From the NCBI RefSeq assembly GCF_014279595.1, contig NZ_CP047943.1, positions 682,001 through 746,000 on the forward strand: a stretch of DNA of 64,000 nucleotides, read 5' to 3'. Source of the DNA: Synechococcus sp. RS9909 (GTDB lineage: Bacteria; Cyanobacteriota; Cyanobacteriia; PCC-6307; Cyanobiaceae). The notes beneath the pieces were generated by a model that saw nothing but the letters and a program-made list of their open reading frames with translations, had not been told where the DNA came from and made no database searches. The position numbers were made by a program, and so were the translations under genes. This document shows positions 22,366-35,098 of this stretch, in pieces. Positions within the stretch are counted from its first letter, which is position 1. Every line of letters begins with the position of its first letter.

Positions 22366-23283
22366 GTGCTGAAGCTTGATGAGCTGGCGCTCTTCGATGG
22401 TCTGATCTGGTTGCGAACCGGAGAGTCGGTGGCGCGTCGTTTCAGCTGTGCCCAGTCCACCGTCAGTCGCAACACCGCCAAGGTGCTCGAGCTGTTCGGG
22501 CTGGAGCTGGTGCGCGATGACTTCGGCGAATGGCAGTTGCTCGGCGATCTTTCCCTGCTCAATGCCGAACGGCAGGTGCATCAGAAGGCCCGCTGGGCCG
22601 CGTGGGCGCCGTTGCGCCTGGAAGCCACCTACTGGACCGCGCTCTCCTACTGCGCCGCTGAACTCGGCCCCTGGATGCTCGGCAATTCCGACATCATGTC
22701 GATCCGTCATCGCCATCTGCTGCTCGACCACCGGATCGTGGACTGCCAGATCACCACGCTGCCCGATCTGCTTGGACCCGTCGATCCGCATTACCGCTAC
22801 CTCCAGCTCACGGCGATGCAACCGTTCTTCGTGTGTGCACCGGATCATCCACTCACGAAAGTCAAAAATCCCAGCTTCGATGAGCTCGCTGCCTATCCCT
22901 CCCTCGCCCTGCCACCGCAGACCTTCCCGAAGGTGGAGGCTGCCCTCAAGCAGCTCGGCCTCTGGAATACACCGGTGCGCATGTGTCGCTACCGCTACGA
23001 GAAATGGGAAGGCAAATGCGAGTCGGAACTGCTCATCTCCTACGGCAACCCGCTCACCCAGCACACCGCCCCCAGCTCCCTGCATCGCCTTCCCCTGGCG
23101 TTGCCGTTTGCCTCCGGTGATGTGCTGGTGTACCGCCAAGACTTTGAGGGGCATCCCCTGCTCCTCGCGTTGATCGAGCGTCTGTCGCTTGCCGTGGATG
23201 CGGTGCGTGAGATCGTGCCCGACATCACCAAAGTGTTTGCCCCACTGGATGCTGCAGCGCTCGAGGTGCCTGTGCGTCGCTGA
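22366..23283 (+). CDS. LysR-type transcriptional regulator
   Basis: 305 residues from GTG 22366 (preceded by AGAAGGG). The N-terminal winged helix-turn-helix is seen in ESVARRFSCAQSTVSRNTAK, then a substrate-binding-like domain that is atypical: Trp-, Cys- and Arg-rich, with KYEK-like basic segments (MCRYRYEKWEGKCESELL). The effector is unknown. It is the last gene before the pseudo-ATPase cluster and reads in the same direction as the first of those genes (start 64 bp after its stop), so it could control that cluster. Confidence 0.75.
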   Translation: MLKLDELALFDGLIWLRTGESVARRFSCAQSTVSRNTAKVLELFGLELVRDDFGEWQLLGDLSLLNAERQVHQKARWAAWAPLRLEATYWTALSYCAAELGPWMLGNSDIMSIRHRHLLLDHRIVDCQITTLPDLLGPVDPHYRYLQLTAMQPFFVCAPDHPLTKVKNPSFDELAAYPSLALPPQTFPKVEAALKQLGLWNTPVRMCRYRYEKWEGKCESELLISYGNPLTQHTAPSSLHRLPLALPFASGDVLVYRQDFEGHPLLLALIERLSLAVDAVREIVPDITKVFAPLDAAALEVPVRR

Positions 23284-23346: not shown

Positions 23347-25473
23347 ATGAGCCAGCTTCGCGTCGGTCAGGTTCTGGAGTGCAGCGCCAATGGCAGCCGC
23401 TGGCGTGTGATGCACCAGCTTCCCGGCCGGGTGCGACTGCAGCTGCTGCACACCGGTCTTGATGCTGAGCTGGCCCAGGCTCTAGCCCACCAGAGCCTGC
23501 AGCGGCATTGGCTGAAGCGGTTTCGGCTCAATGCCCTGGCGGGAAGCCTGGTGCTCGAGGGCCGGCCGGAACGGTTGCGGCGCCGGCGAGCCATTGTGCA
23601 GTTGCTGCAGCAGGCCGCCCAGCAGGAGGCTGGCCTGCCCCTGGAGATCACCCCTCGGCTTGAGACCCGCTCCCTGCGCCGACTCGGCCTGGTGGTTGGT
23701 CTGTTCAGCCTCAACGCCCTGCTCGAGCTGCCCCTGATCCTGCTGCTGCTGCCGGTCACCCCGCTGCTGTTTGTGCCCCTGTTCCGCTCGATCTGGGCGG
23801 AGCGCCGTGCCGGGCGTCTGCCGGCCAAGACCCTGGATCTGCTCTGGTATGGCTCGCTGGTGCTGCGCGGCCACAGCCAGGCCCTGCTGCTCGAGTGGGG
23901 CATCGAGGTGGGTAACCATTCCCTCCAGGGCTGGACCCCCAACCACGGCCAACACGAGCGGCTCGCCGATCGGCTCGAAGCGTTTCGCCTGAGCACGGTG
24001 GTGACCCGGCTCGAGCGCGATGGTCGTCTTTCGACGCCCACACTGGCGGAGCTCCAACCCGGAGATCGGCTGCGCCTCATCGCCGGAGACCGGGTTCCCT
24101 GTCATGGCCTGGTCATGGATGGGGAGGCCGTGATCACCTCGTTATGGGCCGATGGCCGCACCGTGCAGATCGCCGTGCGGCCGTTTCAGCAGTTGCCCGC
24201 CGGGGTGCAGCTCGTCAGCGGTGCGCTGACGCTCCGGGTGATCCAATGCGCCGATCCGGTGGAGCGTCGGCTGGAGAACATCCCCGTGCGTGAGCCGGAG
24301 GCCCATGTCCCCGCCCTTGTGGAACGGGCCCGCTGGCTGCACACCCGGTCCGTTCCCCTGATCCTGTTGGCGGGGGGTGGTCTGCTGGCCGCCGGTAACT
24401 CCGGTGGGGCGGCAGGCCTGTTGCAATTCGATCCCGCCAGCGACTGGCAGTTGAGCTGTTCGCTGCTCTACGGCGCCGTGCAGCGGGATGCCCTCAACCT
24501 CGGCGTGGTGCTCAAACGCCCGGAGGCGAGCGATGGCATCGCCCAAAGCCGTCAGCTGCTGATCACCGAAGCGGTGCTGGAGCGGCTGGGCCAGCGCTCC
24601 CTTGCCGGCATTCACCCGCTCGACGACACCACGGTGGAGGAGTTGGCCCAGATCGTGGCCGGCTTCCGTTGCCGCCAGCGCCCATTCGGGCTCACGGCAT
24701 TCCTGCCCCTGTTGCATGCGCTGGATCTGGACCCGTACATCGTTGATGACCTGGAGCCGATGCATCCCTTCGGCTGGCGGGGCATCATTCGCGGTGAACG
24801 GGTGGAATTGGGCGGTCCCCGGCTGCTGCAGTCCCGGCATCTCCGCCACGATCCCTCCTTCGGGCGCCATGCCGACCAGACCTGGATCTATGTGCTGCGC
24901 AGCGGCCGCCTGATCGGTGCGATCGATCTCCGGGTGCACCTCTCCAGGCGCCTGATTCGTTCTCTCAAGCGGATTCAGCGGATGGGGATCGGGATTCGCT
25001 TGCTGATGGCGTCAGATCTGCAGCTGGCCGATCTGCTCTGTCAGCGCCTCGATCTGCCCGCTGAGGCCGTGGTGGTGGCACCGCAACCGGAGCGTCAGCT
25101 TGCCCAGGTGAACCGCTGCCGCAAGGCCGGGCCGGTGATGCTGCTCGGTGGCGCCGATGCTGATACGCCCCTGATCGCTGCCGCCGATGTGGGCATCACG
25201 ATGGTGGAGTCGCAGCCTCAGCTGAGCCAGTCGGTCGCCGATGTGATGATCGCCGCCCGTTGCATCGATCGCCTACCGGCCGCGATAGCGCTCTGTCGCC
25301 GCTCCCATGGCGACCAGGCCGGCCAGGCGGCCCTGGTGCTCTTACCCCACCTGCTGGTGGTGCTGGTGAATCTGGTGCTGCCGATTCACCCCCTGCTTGC
25401 GGTATTCCTCGTCGACATGCCAATCCTCACCAGCGAGCTGCTGCTGGTGAGGGCCGGACGTCAGCGGCGCTGA
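23347..25473 (+). CDS. P-type ATPase-like pseudoenzyme with N-terminal basic HMA-like domain
   Basis: 708 residues. Residues about 20-95 form an HMA-like domain with MHQLPGRVRLQL and RFRLNALAGSLVLEG, the basic pattern of CoBaHMA domains. A membrane pair follows (about 112-150), then an A-domain-like stretch (LAELQPGDRLRLIAGDRVPC). The TGES loop is degraded (ITSLWADGRT). Where P-type ATPases have DKTGT this protein has ITEAVL, so the phosphorylated Asp is Thr407. The GDGxND motif reads GGADADT. Two to three C-terminal membrane segments remain. It therefore should bind membranes and perhaps nucleotide but not form a phosphoenzyme. It is intact in frame and not a decayed fragment. A second protein of the same design is at 27085-29247. 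Confidence 0.8.
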   Translation: MSQLRVGQVLECSANGSRWRVMHQLPGRVRLQLLHTGLDAELAQALAHQSLQRHWLKRFRLNALAGSLVLEGRPERLRRRRAIVQLLQQAAQQEAGLPLEITPRLETRSLRRLGLVVGLFSLNALLELPLILLLLPVTPLLFVPLFRSIWAERRAGRLPAKTLDLLWYGSLVLRGHSQALLLEWGIEVGNHSLQGWTPNHGQHERLADRLEAFRLSTVVTRLERDGRLSTPTLAELQPGDRLRLIAGDRVPCHGLVMDGEAVITSLWADGRTVQIAVRPFQQLPAGVQLVSGALTLRVIQCADPVERRLENIPVREPEAHVPALVERARWLHTRSVPLILLAGGGLLAAGNSGGAAGLLQFDPASDWQLSCSLLYGAVQRDALNLGVVLKRPEASDGIAQSRQLLITEAVLERLGQRSLAGIHPLDDTTVEELAQIVAGFRCRQRPFGLTAFLPLLHALDLDPYIVDDLEPMHPFGWRGIIRGERVELGGPRLLQSRHLRHDPSFGRHADQTWIYVLRSGRLIGAIDLRVHLSRRLIRSLKRIQRMGIGIRLLMASDLQLADLLCQRLDLPAEAVVVAPQPERQLAQVNRCRKAGPVMLLGGADADTPLIAAADVGITMVESQPQLSQSVADVMIAARCIDRLPAAIALCRRSHGDQAGQAALVLLPHLLVVLVNLVLPIHPLLAVFLVDMPILTSELLLVRAGRQRR

Positions 25474-25474
25474 G

Positions 25475-25789
25475 TCAGGAGCGGCTGCTGCTGATCGAGG
25501 TGGTGCGCTTGGCCTTGTTCTGCTCCAGGTCGGCCTTGGCTTCCGCCAGCAGATCGGTGAAGCTCTCACCCACTTCCGAGAAGCCCTGGCCGATGCCCCG
25601 CAGCAGGCCGCCGGTGCTGTCGGCGAGGCGGATGCCCAGCTTGAGCCCCTGCTTGGTGATGGCGCGGCCCGTGTCGCCGATGGAGCGGCTGACGCGGTTT
25701 TCGCCGCCACCCACAGCCTTCACGGCGGGAGCGATGGCCACCAGGGCAGCACCGAGGCCCATGGCGATCAACAGTTCGAGTTCAAACAT
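25475..25789 (-). CDS. Small hydrophobic-hairpin protein (DUF5132-like), paralogue of 32355-32693
   Basis: 104 residues: an N-terminal hydrophobic helix (MFELELLIAMGLGAALVAIA) then a Gly-rich amphipathic region (DSTGGLLRGIGQGFSEVGES) and a charged Lys/Arg/Ser tail. It shares the first residues MFELE, the overall layout and the TGRAITKQGLKLG segment with TGRSMAKSGIKLG in the other copy, so the two are paralogues. It is convergent with the pseudo-ATPase and ends 1 bp from its stop. DUF5132 proteins often sit beside P-type ATPases. Function is unknown, probably membrane-associated. Confidence 0.72.
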   Translation of the reverse strand: MFELELLIAMGLGAALVAIAPAVKAVGGGENRVSRSIGDTGRAITKQGLKLGIRLADSTGGLLRGIGQGFSEVGESFTDLLAEAKADLEQNKAKRTTSISSSRS

Positions 25790-25902
25790 CGCGGGTTAGA
25801 AAACAACCATCACACCCTGATTGCAGCATGAAAGGGCGACGCCGTCGCGTGTTCCAGTCGTAGCCGCAGTTGTTTGTCAGCTGGTGCTGACCGATCGGTG
25901 AA

Positions 25903-26496
25903 TCAGCTGGCGCTGACCGGGCCAAGCCACTCAATGTCGCCTTTTTGCAGGGTGTAGCAGGCGGCTTCGATCCGCAGGGTTCCCTCCGCCACCCTGGAGC
26001 GCATCAGCTCACTGCCCTGGAGCAGACGCCGGGCCGCCACCCGGCTGTTGGCCCGGAAGGCCCGATCCAGCTCCGAGCCCACACCTTCCTCATCGAGGCC
26101 GCTGCGGATGTTGAGCACCAGGTCCTGCAAGGCCGGGGTCAGTGCTTCCTGGGGGGTGCAGGCCGCGGTCACCGCACCACAGCCCTCATGGCCCATCACC
26201 ACGATGAGTTGCAGGTTCAGCCCCAACACGCCGTAATCCAGGGAGCCGATCGTGTCGGTGAAGCTCGTGTTTCCGGCCGTGCGCACCACATAGAGGTCGC
26301 CGAAGCCGGCGTCGAAGAGCAGCTCCACCGGCACGCGCGAATCGGAACAGCTCACCACCGCCGCCAGCGGATGCTGGCCCTCAACCAGCTGGCGCAGCCG
26401 ATAGGAGGAAGAATGGGGATGACGGGATTCCCCCGCCATGAAGCGGGCATGGCCCTCCTGCAGCGTCTCCAGGAGCTTTTGCGGGTCATGGTTCAT
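25903..26496 (-). CDS. Beta-class carbonic anhydrase
   Basis: 197 residues with the zinc ligands of the beta class: Cys in VVSCSDSRVPVE and His/Cys in VMGHEGCGAV, plus the Asp-Arg dyad in CSDSR. ATG 26496 (MNHDPQKLLETLQEGHARFM) gives the usual N-terminal helix. It has no signal peptide, so it is predicted cytosolic. It interconverts CO2 and bicarbonate. It is divergent from the protein at 26621, inside the ATPase/pseudo-ATPase cluster, and is not the carboxysomal enzyme by context (no carboxysome genes nearby). Confidence 0.9.
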   Translation of the reverse strand: MNHDPQKLLETLQEGHARFMAGESRHPHSSSYRLRQLVEGQHPLAAVVSCSDSRVPVELLFDAGFGDLYVVRTAGNTSFTDTIGSLDYGVLGLNLQLIVVMGHEGCGAVTAACTPQEALTPALQDLVLNIRSGLDEEGVGSELDRAFRANSRVAARRLLQGSELMRSRVAEGTLRIEAACYTLQKGDIEWLGPVSAS

Positions 26497-26620
26497 CGCT
26501 GGCTGAAGGGGAATCGCTCGCGGTGGCCGCAGGGTGGCACAACAGGCCCGTTTCTGTTGTTGTCTGTTTCGGCCATTGGCTCGATCATGACGGCCATAGA
26601 CCTGCCGGCCGGTGTCCCCC

Positions 26621-27142
26621 ATGAGCGAAGAACTGGTGCCTCTCGCCAAACTGGAGACCGATCTGGGCCTGTCGCGGGCCGATGTGCTGCTCCTGCTGCA
26701 TCGCCTCAAGCTCGAGCCGGTGCGTCGTGGCCTGCGCACCTATGTGCAGGCCGCCGATGTGGCCCAGCTGCTGGCCGCTGTGGAGGCTGGTGATGCCGAA
26801 CCGGTGGCGGCCGAGCTGGTGCTCGACCCCGTCGGTGTGGAAGCATCCTTGCCTGTGCCAACCGGAGATCGCGACTGGAGAAAGGCGGAGCTCTACGCCG
26901 ATCTGAGGCTCTTCCGTGAACGGCTCGACATCCTCGAGCAGCTGGTGCGCACCGGCATTGAGGTGGAGAGTGGTGAACTCGCCGACCTGTTGCAGCTCAA
27001 GCGGCTGCCCTCGGTGGAGTCCCTGCCGGAGGGACCTGGCTTCATCCGCCGTGGTCTGCGCTGTCAGCGGATGCAGCGTCCCGGTCAGCGGGCGTCCTGG
27101 CGCTTGTTTCGTGATGGCACCGGTTGGCCGGATGCGGCATAA
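26621..27142 (+). CDS. Hypothetical protein with N-terminal helix-turn-helix-like region
   Basis: 173 residues. VPLAKLETDLGLSRADVLLLLHRLKLEPVRRGLRTYV resembles an excisionase/MerR-type winged helix-turn-helix, followed by an Ala/Val/Glu-rich coiled-coil-like region. I do not recognise the family. It ends convergently 58 bp inside the pseudo-ATPase gene at 27085. A regulatory role for the cluster is possible but unproven. Confidence 0.6.
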   Translation: MSEELVPLAKLETDLGLSRADVLLLLHRLKLEPVRRGLRTYVQAADVAQLLAAVEAGDAEPVAAELVLDPVGVEASLPVPTGDRDWRKAELYADLRLFRERLDILEQLVRTGIEVESGELADLLQLKRLPSVESLPEGPGFIRRGLRCQRMQRPGQRASWRLFRDGTGWPDAA

Positions 27143-29247
27143 CCCGCCGTCTGCACGCTCAGAATGTTGTTGAGCTCCGCCAGCAACATCGGCAGGTCGT
27201 AGAAGAGGATCGCTTGCATCGGCGCGATCCAGCCGCTGGCGGTGACCAAGGCGGTGGCGATCTGGGTGCCGGTGATCAGGCTGAAGTTGCCGGTTTCCGC
27301 CTGTTGCAGGCGCCGGCTCATGGTCACCAGGCGCGGCAGCCAGGAGGCATTGGTGGGGATCATCAGATCGCAGAGCCGCGCCACCATCAGGCTGTCGTCG
27401 GGGGTGGTCATGCCCATCGACACGTCGGCCTGCTCCAAAGCGGCCAGATCCTGGAGCAGGTAGCCCATGTAGGCAACCCCGTTGCTGCCGTTGCCCTGAA
27501 GACGACGGATCAGGGCGAGGCGTGCTTCGGCATCACAAGCACCATGCCGCTGGTCATCGGGGAGCTGCAGCGCTTCGGTGCAGGTTTCCAGCTGGTCGTC
27601 GGGAAGCGACGACACCACATGCAAGCGGATGCCGAGCTGATGGAGCATGTCGGCAGCCTCCAGCCAGTGCTCATCCGGCAGGAATTGCAGCACAATCCGC
27701 CCGATGCAGGCACCGTTACGGCTCAGTCGCAGGGGTGTCAGCAGATCGTCGGGCCGTTCCGCTTCGATCACCACATTGTCGCCAGCTCGGGTGCGCACGC
27801 TGTAACGACGCCCGTCCGCCTCGATCGCCACGGAGGTGATCGCCGTTGGCGTTTCGATCTCCTGCAGCTGCCGGGTCCAGATCGCCATGCCATCGATGCC
27901 GCTCAACCAGCTCTGAATGCCGGCGAGCAGGCGGAGCAGCTCCCCGTTGTTCGGATCGGCACCCGGGGCCGTTTCTTCCTTCAGTCGCATGCCGCCGGCC
28001 TGATTCAGGCAGCTCTGGGTCACCACCAGGTGGCGGATGCGTCCCAGGCTGCTGAGCACATTCGGGTTGCGGATCCGCACCTTGTGCAGGGCCAGGTCGG
28101 CCACGGCGGTGAGCCTGGAGGCGGTGACGCTGTCGCTCCAGTTGTGCAGCGGACTGAAACGGAGTGCCGCCAGGGCAATCTCCTTCGACCCCCGCGCCAG
28201 CATCACGCCGCCACCGGCCAGCAGCAGCGGACTCATCCAGTCGGAGAGTCGCTGCAGGCGCCGATCGAGCACCCCGGTTTCGATCCGGCTGCGGTCGTGC
28301 TGCTCATGCAGCAGGGCGTAGGTGGGATCGCTGATCAGCGCCTCGCTCAGTTCGAGGGTCCCCTGGCCGCGGATCACCAGAGACCCGGTGGGAATCACCT
28401 CGCCTCGCTTCAGCCAGCGCGGATGCCAGTGGCCGTTGATGTGGCGATTGCTCACCAGCAAACGGCCCGATACCAGCGTCGAGCGCAGGGGGCAGAGCTG
28501 CTGGCCATGAATCAGGTAGCGCTGGCCCGGTTTGGCCTGGGCCAGGGGGATCGGATCGGCCGCACTGTCTGGCGGTTGCAGTTGCACCACCCGGCCGAGA
28601 CGCGCCAGTAGGCGGTCGCCATCCACAACGTCTTCCTCCGGTTGCATCACCCCCTGCACGGCACCGGTGGCATCGTGAATGCCGAGATCGGTGAGGGTTT
28701 CGCGGGGCAGACCCTCCAGGAGCATGGCGGTGGAAAAGCCCAGCTCCAGGGTCTCCACATCGAGCCGGCCCTGCCGGAGTTGCCTCAGGGCGGCATGGAT
28801 CCGGGGCCAGAGCAGCAGGGAGGAGAGACCCAGCAGCAGGGTGAGCGGCAGGGGGGTGATGGCATCGATCAGGAGGATCGAGGCGCAGGAGAGACCATGG
28901 CGGATCAGGGGCCGTCCGGGTGCGAACAGGGACTGTTCCGGATCAGCGAGGTCGAGGCCGCTTCCCGGGAGCGGGGGCGTCAGTGCCCGCTCCAGCAGCG
29001 TTTTCAGGTCGCGCCGATGCTGCGGCGGGTAGTGGAGACAGATGCTTCCCGCCAGCGGATTGATCCGGAAGCCGCGCAACCAGTGACAGCTGCTCAGGGT
29101 GAGCCGGCAGTGGTGCAGCAGGGTGGAATCGAGCCGGTTGCTCACCGGTTCCCCGGCGGGGTTCAGGCCATGGCAACGCACCCGCAGCCGTCCGGGCAGG
29201 TCGCTGACCTGGGTCCAGTGCCGGGAGTGGGCAAGGTCGGCAACCAC
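27085..29247 (-). CDS. Second P-type ATPase-like pseudoenzyme with basic HMA-like domain
   Basis: 720 residues from a GTG start. The N-terminal domain has VSDLPGRLRVRCHGL and FRINPLAGSICLHY, the same pattern as the other CoBaHMA-like domains. Membrane helices lie around residues 118-152 and 345-375, with C-terminal membrane segments. At the phosphorylation site the sequence is VVTQSCLNQ (Thr410 for Asp), and the GDGxND position reads GYLLQD, so ATP-driven phosphoenzyme formation is not expected. It is the last gene of a leftward unit with the intact ATPase and the small HMA protein. It is unlike the pseudo-ATPase at 23347 in sequence detail but identical in architecture. A role as a partner or regulatory subunit is inferred. 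Confidence 0.8.
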   Translation of the reverse strand: MVADLAHSRHWTQVSDLPGRLRVRCHGLNPAGEPVSNRLDSTLLHHCRLTLSSCHWLRGFRINPLAGSICLHYPPQHRRDLKTLLERALTPPLPGSGLDLADPEQSLFAPGRPLIRHGLSCASILLIDAITPLPLTLLLGLSSLLLWPRIHAALRQLRQGRLDVETLELGFSTAMLLEGLPRETLTDLGIHDATGAVQGVMQPEEDVVDGDRLLARLGRVVQLQPPDSAADPIPLAQAKPGQRYLIHGQQLCPLRSTLVSGRLLVSNRHINGHWHPRWLKRGEVIPTGSLVIRGQGTLELSEALISDPTYALLHEQHDRSRIETGVLDRRLQRLSDWMSPLLLAGGGVMLARGSKEIALAALRFSPLHNWSDSVTASRLTAVADLALHKVRIRNPNVLSSLGRIRHLVVTQSCLNQAGGMRLKEETAPGADPNNGELLRLLAGIQSWLSGIDGMAIWTRQLQEIETPTAITSVAIEADGRRYSVRTRAGDNVVIEAERPDDLLTPLRLSRNGACIGRIVLQFLPDEHWLEAADMLHQLGIRLHVVSSLPDDQLETCTEALQLPDDQRHGACDAEARLALIRRLQGNGSNGVAYMGYLLQDLAALEQADVSMGMTTPDDSLMVARLCDLMIPTNASWLPRLVTMSRRLQQAETGNFSLITGTQIATALVTASGWIAPMQAILFYDLPMLLAELNNILSVQTAGYAASGQPVPSRNKRQDAR

Positions 29248-29290
29248 AGCAGAAGAGCGTGCACGTCGGGGGCGCTTCAGTGCGCTGAAT

Positions 29291-29839
29291 TCAGTGCGCT
29301 GAAGCGATGAAGGGGCGCCGCAACAGAAAGGCCAGTTCGATCAACCAGGCCGCGAGCAGCAGCAGCAGGGTGCCTGGAGAGAGGGGGAGCAGGAGGCCGG
29401 GCAGCCCGATCAGGATCAGGCTGAAGGCTGTGAGGGTGAGAAGCAAACTGAGGGAGACGGTCATCAGGTTGGTCAGGCCACCCAGCAAGGCCACCAGCCA
29501 TCGCCAGCGCCGCTCAGGCCTCTGATGCAGCGGCGTGGCGATGTTGCGCAGGGGAATCGTGATCAGCTCCGGTGCCGGAGCTGCAGCGCCGATCTCCTCC
29601 AGTGCGGCCACCAGAGCCATGGCCGCCGGTTGCCAGGCTTGGTCGTTGCCGGCAGTGATCCCGGAGATCACCACCGACTGGGCGATTGGATTGAGCCGAA
29701 ACCGGAACGGTGTTCCCGTGAGCCTGACCCGCAGGGTGTCAGCGAGGGCCGACCAGTCGATCGGCTCCTCAAACCGAAGGGAGTAGCGCCGACGCCCCCG
29801 GCCGCGATGACGAAGCCTGAGGCAGTCGACAGCACTCAT
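29291..29839 (-). CDS. Small basic HMA-like domain protein with C-terminal membrane helices
   Basis: 182 residues. The first 95 residues form an HMA-like domain with RLRHRGRGRRRYSLRF and FRFRLNPIAQSVVISG, which match the basic edge and the Asn-Pro strand of CoBaHMA. Two hydrophobic segments follow (about 114-142 and 150-170). Its ATG overlaps the stop of the intact ATPase (ATGA), so the two are translationally coupled, and the pseudo-ATPase follows 43 bp downstream. It may be an accessory subunit that recruits anionic membrane lipid or ligand. This is inferred from domain family. Confidence 0.7.
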   Translation of the reverse strand: MSAVDCLRLRHRGRGRRRYSLRFEEPIDWSALADTLRVRLTGTPFRFRLNPIAQSVVISGITAGNDQAWQPAAMALVAALEEIGAAAPAPELITIPLRNIATPLHQRPERRWRWLVALLGGLTNLMTVSLSLLLTLTAFSLILIGLPGLLLPLSPGTLLLLLAAWLIELAFLLRRPFIASAH

Positions 29840-32346
29840 GCGGCAGCGAGCGCTTCGGGCACATACACCTTGCGGCGATCGCAGTAGCTCCAGCTGTGGC
29901 CATCGGGATCGTTCTCCCGGCTCCAGCGGTGCAGTTCACCCTTGCGACGCAATGAGCTCAGTTGCTGGTGGCTGGTGCCGAGCCGTTGGGCCAGTTCCCT
30001 GGCGCGCAGGGGCTGGATCGCCGTTTCGGTGACGGCGACGTCCGTTGCGGTGCTGGCGTCGCTGCGGCCGGGGCGTGCCTGCCGCACGCTGCCGTCCTCC
30101 AGTTCGGGCAGGGGTTCCGGGCGGAACTGCAGCGTGCGCATGGCATTGCCCGCTGCCACCAGGGAGGAGCCGTTGTTGATCAGAACGGCGGCCACCGGGC
30201 CGAGCGGGAAGAAGGTGCCGATCACCAGGGCGGTGAGGTTGGGCACTCCCACGATGCCGATGTTCTGGTTGATCAGCTTGAAAGTGCGACGCGAGAGGTC
30301 CTGCGCCACGATCAAGCCCGACACCTTGTCGTTGGTGAGCACGATGTCGGCGGTTTCACGGGCCAGATCGCTGCCGGAGGCAAACGACACCGACACATCG
30401 GCATAGGCCAGGGCGGCGGAATCGTTGATGCCGTCACCGACAAACACCACCCGACGCCCCTGCTCCTTGAAGCTCTTCACCAGCTCGGCCTTCTGGTCTG
30501 GCAGGGCCTCGGCGTGCACCTCTTCGGGATAAAGACCGAGGCGTTCGGCCACCGCATGGGCCACGGTTGCCACGTCGCCCGTGAGCATGTGGGCTTCGAT
30601 GCCGCGACGATGCAGCTCCTGCACCAGGGCCTTGCTGTCGGGCCGCAGCTCATCAGCGGCGTGGAAGACGGCCGCCATGGCGCCATCGACAGCCAGATAC
30701 ACGGGGGTGGAGGCATTCAGCTCGGAGCGCTCCGGCAGCTTCGGCTCGCTCAGGCCTTCCTCATGCAGCAGGCGCGCGTTGCCGATCAGCACCTGGTGTC
30801 CGTCGATCACGGCGGCCACACCCCGGCCGATGCGGTAATCCCATGCGTCCGGTTTGACACCAGCCACGCCTTCGGCGGCGGCGAACTGGATGATCGATTC
30901 GGCGATCGGGTGGTTCAGACCCTGTTCGGCGCTGGCAGCCAGGCGAATCAGTTGTTCGCGGGTGTAGGCATCGTTGAGCACATCCAGGTGCACCACCGAG
31001 GGGTGGCCCTGGGTGAGGGTGCCGGTCTTGTCGAAAACCACCACATCCACATCGTTGAGCAGCTCGAGGGCGCGGCCGCTGCGGATCAACAGGCCCTGGC
31101 TGCCGGCGCGGGTGAGGGCCGCCATGATCGCGGTGGGCACCGACACCCGCAGACCGGTGCCGAGGTCGAACATCAGCAAGGATGCCGCCGCCGCCAGATT
31201 GCCGGCACTGAGCAGGAGCGAAACCCCGGCAAGGGCGAGTGTCGGCAACACGAAGCGGTTGGCAATCCGCGCTGCCACGTTGCCCACACGGGTGTCGAAC
31301 ACCGGGGCCGAATCGATCATCGCCGTGATCTGGCCGATCCGGGTCTGTTCGCCCACGGCGGTGGCCCGCATGATCAGGGTGCCTTCGAGAAGAATGAATC
31401 CAGCCAGCACCTCATCGCCGGCTTCGGCATGGCGTGGCACGGATTCACCGGTGAGCTTCACCACATCGAAGCTCACTTCTCCCTTCTCCACCTCACCATC
31501 CACGGGGATGCTGTCGCCGGGATAGAAGATCAGGCGATCACCGAGTTCCACCTCAGAACTGGGGATGACCGTTTCTTGGCCCGCGTCATCGAGCCGGCGC
31601 ACGTCGGCCTGGAGGCTGGCGAGCAGATCGGTGCTGGCGGAATGGGCAATGCGCTGAGTCGCATCGCGAACGGCTTCGCCGCCCTCGATCATGCTGATCA
31701 TCAGCGCTGGGCCCGTCAGGAAACCCTCCAGGCTGTGGATTGTCACCGCCAGGGCATCGAGAGCGTCCACATTGATGCGGCGCTCCTGACGCAGGCCGTC
31801 CCAGGCTCGCTTGAAGCTGAGGCGCGCGGCCACCAGGATGAAGGCGGCCACCGCCAGGGGAGGCAGCGACAGCGGACCCGCCAACAGGGCCAAGGCCAGT
31901 GAGCTCACCGGCAGCACAATCCGGGAGGGAACAAAGGGTTCCTCTTCGTCTGCCTCAGCGGCTTGGTCCGCCGCTCCGGCCGGCGTGGCGTCAATCGCCA
32001 CCTCGTCGAGACGATGATCGCCGCTGCGGGGCAGCTGCTCGAGCCAGGCTTGAAGCTGCTGCTCATTCCAACTCTGGGCGGTTGGAGCCAGTTGCAGCAC
32101 AAGGCAAGCACCGATGCGGTTGTGGCGCACGCTGCTGATCTCTGCCTGAGTCTCGATCCATCGGGCCAGTCGTTGGCTCTCGGGATCGGTGCTGGGCAGG
32201 CGCAGACGCAGGCGCGGGCCGCAGCGGTGGACGATCTGGATGTCGTTGGCATGCCAGGGGGGTAAGGCCCTGGCAGTGGGAACGGCCTTCAGGCCGGAAC
32301 GACGCCCGTCTGGTGACGGGCTATCGACTGCGATGGAAACTGCCAC
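29836..32346 (-). CDS. P-type ATPase with basic HMA-like N-domain, no CPx motif, C-terminal HTH-like tail
   Basis: 836 residues from a GTG start. N-domain (about 36-112): VHRCGPRLRLRL and VRHNRIGACLVLQL. Catalytic motifs are intact: KLTGESVP (Glu301), FDKTGTLTQG (Asp439), LNHPIAES, MLTGD and VGDGINDSAALAYADV. In the sixth-helix position where P1B metal ATPases have CPx, this protein reads MFDLGTGLRVSVPTAIM: CPC is replaced by LGT (about 395-397), so classical Cu/Zn coordination is unlikely. The last 60 residues resemble a helix-turn-helix (RARELAQRLGTSHQQLSSLR) with a Trp-rich tail. First gene after the DUF5132-like gene (9 bp away) in a leftward unit. Substrate unknown. Confidence 0.88.
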   Translation of the reverse strand: MAVSIAVDSPSPDGRRSGLKAVPTARALPPWHANDIQIVHRCGPRLRLRLPSTDPESQRLARWIETQAEISSVRHNRIGACLVLQLAPTAQSWNEQQLQAWLEQLPRSGDHRLDEVAIDATPAGAADQAAEADEEEPFVPSRIVLPVSSLALALLAGPLSLPPLAVAAFILVAARLSFKRAWDGLRQERRINVDALDALAVTIHSLEGFLTGPALMISMIEGGEAVRDATQRIAHSASTDLLASLQADVRRLDDAGQETVIPSSEVELGDRLIFYPGDSIPVDGEVEKGEVSFDVVKLTGESVPRHAEAGDEVLAGFILLEGTLIMRATAVGEQTRIGQITAMIDSAPVFDTRVGNVAARIANRFVLPTLALAGVSLLLSAGNLAAAASLLMFDLGTGLRVSVPTAIMAALTRAGSQGLLIRSGRALELLNDVDVVVFDKTGTLTQGHPSVVHLDVLNDAYTREQLIRLAASAEQGLNHPIAESIIQFAAAEGVAGVKPDAWDYRIGRGVAAVIDGHQVLIGNARLLHEEGLSEPKLPERSELNASTPVYLAVDGAMAAVFHAADELRPDSKALVQELHRRGIEAHMLTGDVATVAHAVAERLGLYPEEVHAEALPDQKAELVKSFKEQGRRVVFVGDGINDSAALAYADVSVSFASGSDLARETADIVLTNDKVSGLIVAQDLSRRTFKLINQNIGIVGVPNLTALVIGTFFPLGPVAAVLINNGSSLVAAGNAMRTLQFRPEPLPELEDGSVRQARPGRSDASTATDVAVTETAIQPLRARELAQRLGTSHQQLSSLRRKGELHRWSRENDPDGHSWSYCDRRKVYVPEALAAA

Positions 32347-32354
32347 TGATGCCG

Positions 32355-32693
32355 TTACTCCACCGTCACTTCGGTGGTCGCAGTCGAGGCTTTGCTGGCC
32401 TTGGCCGGTGTGGCGGCACTGTCGTCGCTGCCCTGCATTTCGTGGCGGGCTTCCGCCACCAGGTCGCCGATCGATTCGGCCGCTTCAGCGGCCCCCTTGG
32501 CCACGCCTCGGGCTGCTGCTCCAGCCGCACCGGCCACGGTGACGCCCAGTTTGATGCCGCTCTTGGCCATGGAGCGACCGGTGTTGTTCATGGAATCTCC
32601 GAGCTGGGGATTACCAAAGCGTCTGACCATCGGCGCCAGGGCCACCAACCCGGCACCCACGCCAAACGCCAGAACTGTTTCCAGCTCAAACAT
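32355..32693 (-). CDS. Small hydrophobic-hairpin protein (DUF5132-like), second copy
   Basis: 112 residues. MFELETVLAFGVGAGLVALA opens the first helix, then TGRSMAKSGIKLGVTVAG and AARGVAKGAAEAAESIGDLV form a Gly/Ala-rich helix of glycine-zipper character, followed by an acidic, Ser/Thr/Lys-rich tail. It is a paralogue of 25475-25789. It stands 9 bp upstream of the intact ATPase on the same strand, so it is the likely first gene of the ATPase operon. ATG 32693 was chosen because MFELE matches the start of the paralogue. Confidence 0.75.
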   Translation of the reverse strand: MFELETVLAFGVGAGLVALAPMVRRFGNPQLGDSMNNTGRSMAKSGIKLGVTVAGAAGAAARGVAKGAAEAAESIGDLVAEARHEMQGSDDSAATPAKASKASTATTEVTVE

Positions 32694-32811
32694 GAATCCA
32701 GAGGCCATTGACGAAGCCGAGCTTACGCTGATCTGCTGAAATGTGGTGATTCTGCGCAACCCACTCAGGGAGTTGGTATTGGGCCACACATCCAACCGTG
32801 ATCCGGGCGCG

Positions 32812-33861
32812 ATGGCTGTGGTGTTGCTGGTGGCAGATCAGCCCCAACAGGCTCTGGACCTCGTGATGGCCCAGCAGCGGCTTGCCGCTTCGGGGCTGGT
32901 GGTGCTCGATCTCAATGGCGAGACCAGTCACCTGCTTGAGGGGCGTGATCTCCAGGGCGGCAGCCTGCGCTGGGAGGCCTTTGTGGCCCAGGAGCATGCG
33001 GCGGCCCTCTGGCCCGACCTGGAGGGGCCCTTGCGGCCCTGGGCGGCGATGCTCGGGCTGTCGATCGACTCGCCGACACCTCCCTGGCTGGTTCCCGGTC
33101 TGGAGGATCTCCAGCGCGTGCTCTGGCTGGCGGACCGTCTGGCGGTGTCGATGGCGGATCCCGAGGTTCAGACGGTCACGCTGGTGCTGCCGCCCCTGGC
33201 CCAGGCCTTGCCGCTTCTGCGGCTGGCCCAACGGGCGCCGGAGCTGATCCTCAGCCTCTGGGATCCCCTGCTGAATTGGTGGAGCGACACCCGTCAGCGC
33301 CTGTCCCACCTCGAGTTGGTGCTGCGTTTGCAGTTACCCAGCGCCGAATCCCTGCGTCCTCCCACGCCATGGCTGGAGCGGTGCCGGTTGTTGGCCGCCC
33401 TTCTGAACAACGAACAACGTCTTGATGTGGTGTTGGCCCTCAGCGGCGATGCCGACTCCTGGCCGCTGCAGCGTCGCCGCCTGGCGGCGTTGCCCTTGAG
33501 CGGCTACCCCCTGCATCGCCTCTGGATCCAGGGACAGGGCTGGTCGACGCCGCTGTTGGAGGGCTGGTCGCCGCCGATGCTGCTGGGCGGCACCTCGCCC
33601 GCGAATCAAGAGGATCCACTGGTGACCCTGTTGGCGCAGGAGGCACCACGGATCAACCTCACCGATTGGGAGGACCAGCTCTGCCGCGTGTTCGCCCCTG
33701 GCGTTGGCCGAGGGGACCTGCGTGTGCAGCAGCAGGAGGACGCTCTGGTGATCTCCGCTTTGGGGCAGCGGCGGATCATTGCCCTGCCGGAGGCCTGCCG
33801 TCAGCGCGAACCCGCTTCCGCCAGGGTCTGTGCACCCTTCGTGGAGGTGGTGTTTCGCTGA
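32812..33861 (+). CDS. Degenerate ArsA-like protein (C-terminal HSP20-like domain, no P-loop)
   Basis: About 349 residues. The C-terminal segment (LRVQQQEDALVISALGQRRI and ALPEACRQREP) resembles the HSP20-like domain that closes ArsA-type anion-transport ATPases. The N-terminal part has the Leu/Val-rich strands of such a protein but I find no GKGGVGKT-type P-loop, so ATP hydrolysis is not expected. It is divergent from the DUF5132-like gene and convergent with the small HMA protein at 33801, overlapping it by 61 bp. The ArsA link is from recognition of the end domain only and needs a profile search. The GTG at 32743 would lengthen it. Confidence 0.5.
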   Translation: MAVVLLVADQPQQALDLVMAQQRLAASGLVVLDLNGETSHLLEGRDLQGGSLRWEAFVAQEHAAALWPDLEGPLRPWAAMLGLSIDSPTPPWLVPGLEDLQRVLWLADRLAVSMADPEVQTVTLVLPPLAQALPLLRLAQRAPELILSLWDPLLNWWSDTRQRLSHLELVLRLQLPSAESLRPPTPWLERCRLLAALLNNEQRLDVVLALSGDADSWPLQRRRLAALPLSGYPLHRLWIQGQGWSTPLLEGWSPPMLLGGTSPANQEDPLVTLLAQEAPRINLTDWEDQLCRVFAPGVGRGDLRVQQQEDALVISALGQRRIIALPEACRQREPASARVCAPFVEVVFR

Positions 33862-34298
33862 GAGGGTTGGGGCGGTCGCCAGCCCAGCCACCAGGCCATC
33901 AAAAAGAAGGGGGTACCGGGTAGCACCGGTAGGGCCCAGCCCGCCACCGCCAGAGCCATCAGCATCTTGATGCTGCCGAGCCGTGAGCGTTGCAGCACTC
34001 CCGGTAGGCCCCGTTCCGGAGGGGCGGCGAGGTGGGCAGGCGGCAGTTGGATGGTCTGCTCCAGCAGCTGCAGGCCCTGGTGGATCGACTGATCGGGATC
34101 GAGGCTCCAGAGCACGAGCCCGCGGCCGGAGGAGGCCGGGCGCAGAGCGAAGCCGGCCTGTTGCTGTTCCATCAGCCAGAGCAGGCTGCGCATGCGGTGC
34201 GAACAGAGGGGCTGCCGGAAGCGGAGACGGACGCGGTGATGGAGACGGTGCTCCACCACATAGGCCAGGTTGGCGGCGGGCGCTTCAGGGCAATGCAT
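33801..34298 (-). CDS. Small basic HMA-like domain protein with membrane helix
   Basis: 165 residues. Residues about 12-75 carry YVVEHRLHHRVRLRFRQPL, a basic strand like those at the start of the ATPase-type proteins, then RPASSGRGLVLWS, where CoBaHMA proteins have their second strand. The C-terminal half has a hydrophobic segment containing LPVLPGTPFFLMAWWLGWRP, similar to the PGTP/PGLP motif of DUF454-type membrane proteins. It is convergent with the ArsA-like gene (61 bp overlap). It is the fifth basic HMA-like domain in this cluster. Confidence 0.6.
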   Translation of the reverse strand: MHCPEAPAANLAYVVEHRLHHRVRLRFRQPLCSHRMRSLLWLMEQQQAGFALRPASSGRGLVLWSLDPDQSIHQGLQLLEQTIQLPPAHLAAPPERGLPGVLQRSRLGSIKMLMALAVAGWALPVLPGTPFFLMAWWLGWRPPQPSQRNTTSTKGAQTLAEAGSR

Positions 34299-34408
34299 GG
34301 GGTGGCCCTGGTCGGCGTTCACTGAACAATCATCCATCAGCCTATGTCGCCTCACGCAGCTGTTGCTTGACTGCGTTCCGTTCCTCCGGCTTGGTCGACT
34401 CGCAGCCC

Positions 34409-35098
34409 GTGAATTTCTCAGAAACCACGTTCCGAAATTTCCATGATCTGGCTCGGGCGCGGCGGGCGTTGCCGATCGGCATCGTGGTGACCCTGGTGGC
34501 CCTGTTCTGGATGGGCGGTCGGCCCGGTCGCCTCGACGAGGCCTTTTCCGTGGGCTTCCTGATCGCCATGTTGGTGGATCTCTGGCATTTCAATCGGGAG
34601 GCCTTCCTCCTTGGCTCGGAGGAGACACGCGCGCTGTTCGGTCATGAGCGTGCCCGCCGGCAGCGGCTGATCGCGCGCACGGTGGTGTTCACCTTCATGA
34701 GCATCGGCCTTTTGAGCCTGAGCATTCAGGACATGCACCATGCCAAGGGGGCTTTGCCGGAATGGTTGCGGATCCTGGTGTATTTCGCAGCAATGTTCGC
34801 TACTTGGATGCAGCTGCACAACGGCTTTGGCATCCATTACGCCAAGGCCTACTTTCAGCTCAATCCCAGGGGCCGACAGGAGGGCTCGGACCCTCAGGGC
34901 TTCATCTTCGAGGGAGATGAGCCAATGTTTACCGACTTTCTCTACGTTGCTTTCGCCGTAGGGCTCACCTACGCCATGAGTGACGTCAACTTGGAGGATG
35001 GTCGGATTCGGCGCACGGTGTGGTTCCACTCCCTGATGAGCTTCCTGTTTTATTCCACGGTGATCTCGGCCGTTCTCAATCTGTTTACCAGTGCCTGA
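34409..35098 (+). CDS. DUF1345 membrane protein
   Basis: 229 residues from GTG 34409, with about five membrane segments (residues about 18-36, 43-60, 90-110, 120-140, 180-200). The pattern FNREAFLLGSEETRALFGHERARR, then IHYAKAYFQL and FIFEGDEPMFTDFLYVAFAVG, is that of DUF1345. Function is unknown. It lies to the right of the HMA cluster in its own orientation. The start is not certain, since no good ribosome site stands before it. Confidence 0.75.
   Translation: MNFSETTFRNFHDLARARRALPIGIVVTLVALFWMGGRPGRLDEAFSVGFLIAMLVDLWHFNREAFLLGSEETRALFGHERARRQRLIARTVVFTFMSIGLLSLSIQDMHHAKGALPEWLRILVYFAAMFATWMQLHNGFGIHYAKAYFQLNPRGRQEGSDPQGFIFEGDEPMFTDFLYVAFAVGLTYAMSDVNLEDGRIRRTVWFHSLMSFLFYSTVISAVLNLFTSA

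Follow-up and report, generated by a model that had tools for sequence, protein, structure and literature searches.

The stretch of DNA considered here, a window of 64,000 nucleotides from Synechococcus sp. RS9909 (contig NZ_CP047943.1, positions 682,001 to 746,000, forward strand), carries a gene cluster in which one active P-type ATPase, in the following called the pump, is accompanied by two degenerate copies, pA and pB, and by two small membrane proteins, hma1 and hma2. It is proposed, with a probability of about one half, that the pump works with inactive partner subunits in a calcium and inorganic-carbon network. A partnership between the pump and its dead copies is favored by sequence comparison, namely by co-inheritance in 20 of 20 pump genomes and by an arrangement of the genes that recurs in all 18 loci compared.

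The source genome is a single 2.60 Mb contig with six PF00122 matches, three of which fall within this cluster. A sequence-only reading of the same DNA had placed here one active and two inactive P-type ATPases together with two further small proteins, and all five were recovered at their positions: pA (708 amino acids, 23347-25473, plus strand) and, on the minus strand, pB (720 amino acids, 27085-29247), hma1 (29291-29839), the pump (836 amino acids, 29836-32346), and hma2 (33801-34355). The division into active and inactive enzymes is borne out by the DKTGT motif, which is present in 18/18 pump rows of the alignments and in none of the 10 pA and 22 pB rows. In the joint alignment all 18 pump rows also keep TGES, GDGxND, TGD, and HP; in pA and pB, TGES and GDGxND are broken, though the final Asp of the latter remains. 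The position of the phosphorylated Asp is occupied by Ser or Thr in 10/10 pA rows and in every tabulated pB row (21 of the 22). A frame break close to the end of the pump gene was seen in one locus (L053).

Co-inheritance was assessed in a family sample of 201 genomes with a completeness of at least 80% and in a phylum sample of 386 genomes, both drawn from larger groups; few candidates per genome were scored in the searches for pump, pA, and pB, and the pA counts pertain to the family sample. The thresholds were E≤1e-150 with the pump profile in the family, at least 176 bits with the window sequence for pB, and at least 970 bits with a profile for pA. The alignments A1 (22 rows), A2 (10), A3 (18), A6 (14), and part of A7 (8) were drawn from genomes that were later counted for co-occurrence. 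The pump was found in 20/201 family genomes spread over six genera, including 4 of the 16 sampled genomes of the window's genus, its own genome counted. Eighteen of these 20 genomes have pB, 10 have pA, and all have one or the other (Fisher p for co-occurrence 5.6e-28, a value that ignores relatedness). The pattern of one active and two inactive copies thus describes the window but not a rule, since both dead copies are present in only 8/20 pump genomes. No full-length pA or pB match was obtained in the 181 pump-less family genomes, the pB matches there being short, with E-values of 7.7e-6 or weaker. A lone pump should have come to light, because the initial detection of pB relied on one sequence only and the pump profile detects distant pumps outside the family.

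In the phylum sample, a pump match at E≤1e-120 occurs in 51/386 genomes, 7 of them in the family and 44 outside. None of the 44 has full-length pB (at least 790 bits), the best match amounting to 90.5 bits over residues 501-706; full-length pB is confined to the 7 family genomes and therefore seems to have joined an older pump at the level of the family. Relatives devoid of pseudo-ATPases, which the sequence-only reading had held to speak against itself, are thus the case for full-length pB outside the family (44/44), whereas inside it every sampled pump genome carries a dead copy. A partial scan of named genomes with one peptide pattern returned 12 loci, of which nine are named as Cyanobium, Synechococcus, or Vulcanococcus, one as an unspecified cyanobacterium, and two (L070 and L074) as members of other phyla; the latter are pB relatives on contigs named Deltaproteobacteria and Rhodopirellula, which are possibly misbinned.

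The order of the genes also favors a partnership. In all 18 loci whose downstream side is assembled, two genes follow the pump on the same strand, one for a small protein with an N-domain and one for a dead copy, the gaps ranging from -62 to 44 nucleotides. This pair consists of hma1 and pB in 16/18 loci, and of an hma2-type protein and pA in genomes G057 and G080; wherever pump and pB stand together (16/16 loci), hma1 lies between them, and in the other two pump genomes, G031 and G059, the contig breaks within hma1. Conservation of the cluster in other genera speaks against chance.

Two features of the surroundings are new beyond that earlier reading, namely a carbonic anhydrase in the cluster and a link to cation exchangers. 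The beta-carbonic anhydrase gene (25903-26496, minus strand, proposed start; PF00484, 2.8e-30) has its CxDxR and HxxC motifs invariant in 14/14 rows. Orthologues (at least 282 bits) are present in 21/201 genomes, 17 of which are pump genomes, and the enzyme is encoded within 5 kb of the pump in 16/20 pump genomes; in G092 and G120, which lack it at that distance, the pump lies on a cut contig end or on a 6-kb contig. At all three loci with an extra copy of pB, located in three pump genomes, this copy stands directly behind a gene of the Ca2+/H+-exchanger type, with gaps of -1, 1, and 24 nucleotides. The identity of the exchanger comes from a PF01699 scan of the gene at L044, the other two being its BLAST relatives. 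A relative of the LysR gene of the window is found about 5.5 kb from these loci (L044:6478-12234, L047:8529-12072, and L051:8965-12408). The GDT1 cation/proton antiporter gene assigned by a Pfam scan at L057 has relatives near the cluster at 4/4 g5 loci from pump genomes, at L071, and at L061.

The extra copies of pB bear on the question of whether the dead copies serve the pump at all. They could act apart from it, as scaffolds, channels, or lipid or anion sensors that bind, for example, the exchanger, and would then be merely co-expressed with the pump. This explanation gains weight from the pB copies linked to exchangers, which at the three loci have no pump adjoining, and pA is likewise away from the pump in 4/10 pA genomes (far in G044 and G104, on another contig in G031 and G166). 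Moreover, acidic and aromatic residues particular to the dead copies are conserved: pA and pB share a QF[DN]PxxDW-like motif in membrane segment 4 (M4) and a DxPxLxAEL-like motif in M6, both absent from the pump, although some pB rows deviate; the sharing of these motifs is also counted in favor of the partner-subunit proposal. The explanation is at variance, however, with the finding of no full-length dead copy in the 181 pump-less genomes and with the order from pump to dead copy in 18/18 loci, and we regard it as possible but doubtful.

As to the pump itself, its best-scoring models are those of P1B-type ATPases (TIGR01525, 473.7 bits at a cut-off of 346.25) and its best-matching structures are copper and zinc pumps. 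The M4 motif of the window protein is MFDLGTGLRVSVPT, without CPx; across all 18 pump rows this segment reads M[FL]DLGTGLRVSVPT, again with no CPx, and M6 starts with NNG. The pump is thus P1B-like by model score but not a CPx pump because of its M4 DLGTGLRVSVPT. Pumps of the related type outside the family have an M4 motif of the same kind as M[FL]DLGTGLRVSVPT. The protein has a conserved C-terminal extension; its last approximately 60 amino acids resemble a helix-turn-helix, which is unexpected in a P-type ATPase, with HTH_17 matching only at E 0.16.

The N-terminal domains of the five proteins are related as well. The basic strands named beforehand (GRVRLQL, GRLRVRC, PRLRLRL, GRRRYSLRF, and HRVRLRF) are all present in the translations, and a loose pattern of this strand is found in 22/22 pB, 8/10 pA, 17/18 pump, 16/16 hma1, and 16/16 hma2 rows. 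A second strand had been claimed for four proteins; it is evident in pA (LNALAGS), pB (INPLAGS), and hma1 (LNPIAQS), whereas HNRIGAC of the pump is only a loose match and none was seen in hma2. In hhalign comparisons with the N-domains of 12 related pumps, probabilities of 97.6 (pA), 97.4 (pump), 96.7 (pB), 90.8 (hma1), and 86.8 (hma2) were obtained, in line with the suggestion that all five carry related basic N-domains; some direct comparisons among the domains are weak (pB-hma2 31.8, ATP-hma2 62.0, and hma1-hma2 70.9). The Pfam domain HMA_2, which we take to be the domain called CoBaHMA in the literature, is matched at E≤0.05 by 9/10 pA, 11/22 pB, and 1/18 pump rows, and by none of the 16 hma1 and 16 hma2 rows. 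In the proposed check by hidden Markov models, no window protein passes the Pfam cut-off: pA reaches 15.4 bits (E 0.018), under the cut-off of 30, and the other four have no listed match, while HMA_2 is over the cut-off in relatives at L082, L105, L133, and L138. At L133, L134, and L135, outside the family, a related pump has a hairpin gene and genes for additional HMA-like domain proteins around it. Besides its HMA-like domain (hhalign), hma2 has a DUF454-like region; DUF454 matches 16/16 hma2 rows at E≤0.05, with window hma2 under the cut-off, and in NCBIfam hma1 has no match and hma2 only DUF454 (E 0.006, under cut-off). The models of hma1 and pB both show the order strand-strand-helix-strand-strand-helix, followed in hma1 by long helices. 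In the PDB no significant match to the hma1 model was found, the best E being 0.11 and the highest Z, 7.6, belonging to an unrelated protein, so no claim on the fold of hma1 is made, and solved HMA structures were not among the 50 matches listed in the fold comparison. A classical metal-binding N-domain of the HMA/CxxC kind was considered but is not supported, the hhalign probability to the HMA domain of the copper pump of the same genome being 0.3 and CxxC being absent from the first 150 amino acids of all alignment rows save 1/10 pA.

These features also bear on the possibility of a heavy-metal export cluster, in which the small proteins would serve as chaperones or platforms for a pump exporting metals such as Zn, Cd, or Mn. 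The scores with P1B models and Cu and Zn pump structures are as expected from such a role, and the small proteins beside the pump recall PacL1, which is reported to act with the pump CtpC (PMC9374683). Nevertheless, a heavy-metal role is less likely because CPx and CxxC are lacking, as is also indicated by M6 with its NNG and by the neighbors, a carbonic anhydrase and cation/proton antiporters; it is considered unlikely overall.

Both dead copies have remained under constraint, and pB appears to have retained its architecture. In pA, an HMA_2/CoBaHMA-like N-domain, an A domain, and a degenerate P domain are recognized (PF00122 at 6.8e-8, over cut-off, and matching 10/10 pA rows). The AlphaFold2 model of pB (mean predicted local distance difference test score 75.8) matches the zinc pump 4umw with a Foldseek E of 1.3e-25 and template modeling scores of 0.60/0.70, and, by VIA, with Z 23.6 over 559 residues at a root-mean-square deviation of 5.7; as judged from this predicted model, pB retains the P-type fold, with A, P, and membrane domains in P-type arrangement. 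The ratios of nonsynonymous to synonymous substitution (dN/dS) are 0.052, 0.244, and 0.169 in three close pairs of pA and 0.167, 0.134, 0.124, and 0.179 in four pairs of pB, compared to 0.093, 0.129, 0.064, and 0.098 in four pairs of the pump, which argues that pA and pB are kept under purifying selection. A tree computed by a quick method groups pA with pB (Shimodaira-Hasegawa-like approximate likelihood ratio test 100), but the branch concerned measures 2.58 changes per column; in view of a program warning about long-branch attraction, we do not claim that the loss happened only once. That pA and pB represent duplicated pump genes in decay, as their lost catalytic motifs and long branches might suggest, is rejected as most improbable in view of their full-length open frames (683-796 amino acids in the 22 pB rows, 708-753 in the 10 pA rows), their dN/dS of 0.05-0.24, and the 39 invariant columns, start included, of the pB alignment.

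Calcyanin consists of a variable or CoBaHMA-type N-domain and three glycine-zipper blocks. In sampled pump genomes of genera g9, g29, and g31 the cluster includes a gene for a protein, here designated A7, that starts with an HMA-like domain and contains three blocks rich in glycine, a make-up that is presumably that of calcyanin. The link to calcyanin-type proteins drawn in the sequence-only reading is thereby strengthened, as A7 genes lie inside the same cluster in related genera. A7 occurs in 12/201 genomes, 11/20 with and 1/181 without the pump; in 9/11 its gene is no more than 3 kb away from the pump. Outside the family, its profile matches 17/44 pump genomes at E≤0.001, 7 of the 17 only partly, whereas proteins of the other 10/17 share its glycine-rich end (E 6.6e-27 to 5.7e-16) and fall into three kinds by their N-terminus, five being HMA-like and two and three of other kinds. 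One of these 10 genomes, G286, encodes a PsaA identical over 755 residues to the sequence of PDB 1jb0, which we take to be from Thermosynechococcus. In G505, the gene with the glycine-rich end and a PF01699 exchanger gene overlap, both being on one strand; a protein with HMA_2 and DUF454 and a hairpin gene of the DUF5132 type are found nearby. By hhalign, the five HMA-like starts resemble the N-domains of the pump (95.7), pA (94.4), and pB (88.5), while the N-domain of A7 itself reaches only 44.3. The window's genome has an intact calcyanin-like gene of 303 amino acids at G000:C1 about 311061-311970 (L128:5062-5973, minus strand).

From these elements, a transport unit at the membrane can be envisaged in which a single cation pump driven by ATP would be joined by one or two of its paralogues, the latter presumably no longer open to phosphorylation. 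The dead copies would bind the pump through their membrane helices and basic N-domains and would gate or tune it in the manner of a non-catalytic subunit; pB may tune the exchanger likewise, because the extra pB copies follow exchanger genes. Its cargo would be a divalent cation of the hard type, Ca2+ being the most likely one. The unit would serve the balance of calcium and inorganic carbon together with the neighboring carbonic anhydrase, joined in some genera by a calcyanin-like protein. The most far-reaching form of this proposal, offered tentatively, is an obligate heteromeric P-type pump of one catalytic and one or two dead subunits. Such a pump would transport calcium or another hard cation and would be linked to carbonic anhydrase and calcyanin-like proteins; its dead subunit would be a transferable regulator used also on a Ca2+/H+ exchanger.

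Several observations weigh against this proposal of pump and inactive partners in a calcium and inorganic-carbon network. Besides the pA genes away from the pump and the pumps outside the family that do without full-length pB, there are two genomes (G057 and G080) with pump and pA but no carbonic anhydrase nearby, and four (G014, G047, G071, and G195) with the orthologous anhydrase but no pump match. No relative of the exchanger was found at 14-44 kb of the window, and the calcyanin-like gene of the same genome lies approximately 390 kb from the cluster, outside the window. The N-domains of hma1 and hma2 bear poor likeness to the HMA-like starts of the calcyanin-like proteins (18.8 and 3.3 by hhalign), and the choice of Ca2+ as most likely cargo would follow from guilt by association.

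The remaining genes of the locus complete the picture. The hairpin proteins, suggested beforehand to be cluster members, are so indeed. The dufA gene (25475-25789, minus strand) encodes a small hairpin-like, DUF5132-like protein (E 0.014, under cut-off) with homologues in other cluster loci, and the similar dufB (32355-32693, minus strand, proposed start; DUF5132 E 0.48) lies 8 nucleotides before the pump gene; a hairpin gene stands beside the related pump in 15/23 examined loci outside the family. Upstream of pA, a protein with a LysR substrate-binding domain is encoded at 22366-23283 (plus strand; domain match). A protein of 176 amino acids (26612-27142, plus strand) has no Pfam match at E≤1 but has homologues near the cluster elsewhere. 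The product of gene X (32743-33861, plus strand), with homologues in other cluster loci, has an ArsA_HSP20-like C-terminus (PF17886, 4.9e-8, over cut-off) and is perhaps a degenerate ArsA/Get3-like protein; the ends of X and hma2 overlap tail-to-tail, both in the window and in related loci. The gene after hma2 (33983-35098, true start later) resembles a DUF1345 membrane protein gene (L037:17952-18752), relatives of which recur near the cluster, with two copies in several g9 loci.

Compared with known systems, the pump fits the models of P1B-type ATPases such as the zinc pump 4umw and the copper pump 3rfu and has their HP motif, and the model of pB matches 4umw; unlike these enzymes, the pump has no CPx, and the dead copies have neither DKTGT nor TGES nor GDGxND. 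With CoBaHMA/HMA_2 proteins and calcyanin the cluster shares a basic RxR strand without CxxC, and calcyanin-like genes stand in the clusters of related genera; unlike in HMA_2 proteins, the N-domains of the window fall short of the HMA_2 cut-off or have no match. In mycobacteria, the P1B pump CtpC is reported to require PacL1, a small membrane protein (PMC9374683); a small membrane protein and a P1B pump are thus common to both systems, whereas no dead pump copy is named for PacL1/CtpC in the opening of that abstract. For a Ca2+-ATPase suggested for Achromatium inclusions, a 2025 paper states that no functional equivalent was found in Cyanobacteriota (PMC11773610). The cluster supplies transport candidates for the open question of Ca2+ handling in calcyanin-bearing cyanobacteria. 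Regarding the working principle proposed here, the nearest parallels are KdpFABC and Na,K-ATPase, both of which are made of a pump and non-catalytic partner subunits; to our knowledge, those subunits are not paralogues of P-type ATPases, and searches of open-licence papers gave no report of an active P-type pump co-inherited with dead paralogues of itself. If true, the proposal would provide P-type ATPases with a pseudoenzyme partner, and both this question and that of Ca2+ handling can be tested by deleting genes in a strain in culture.

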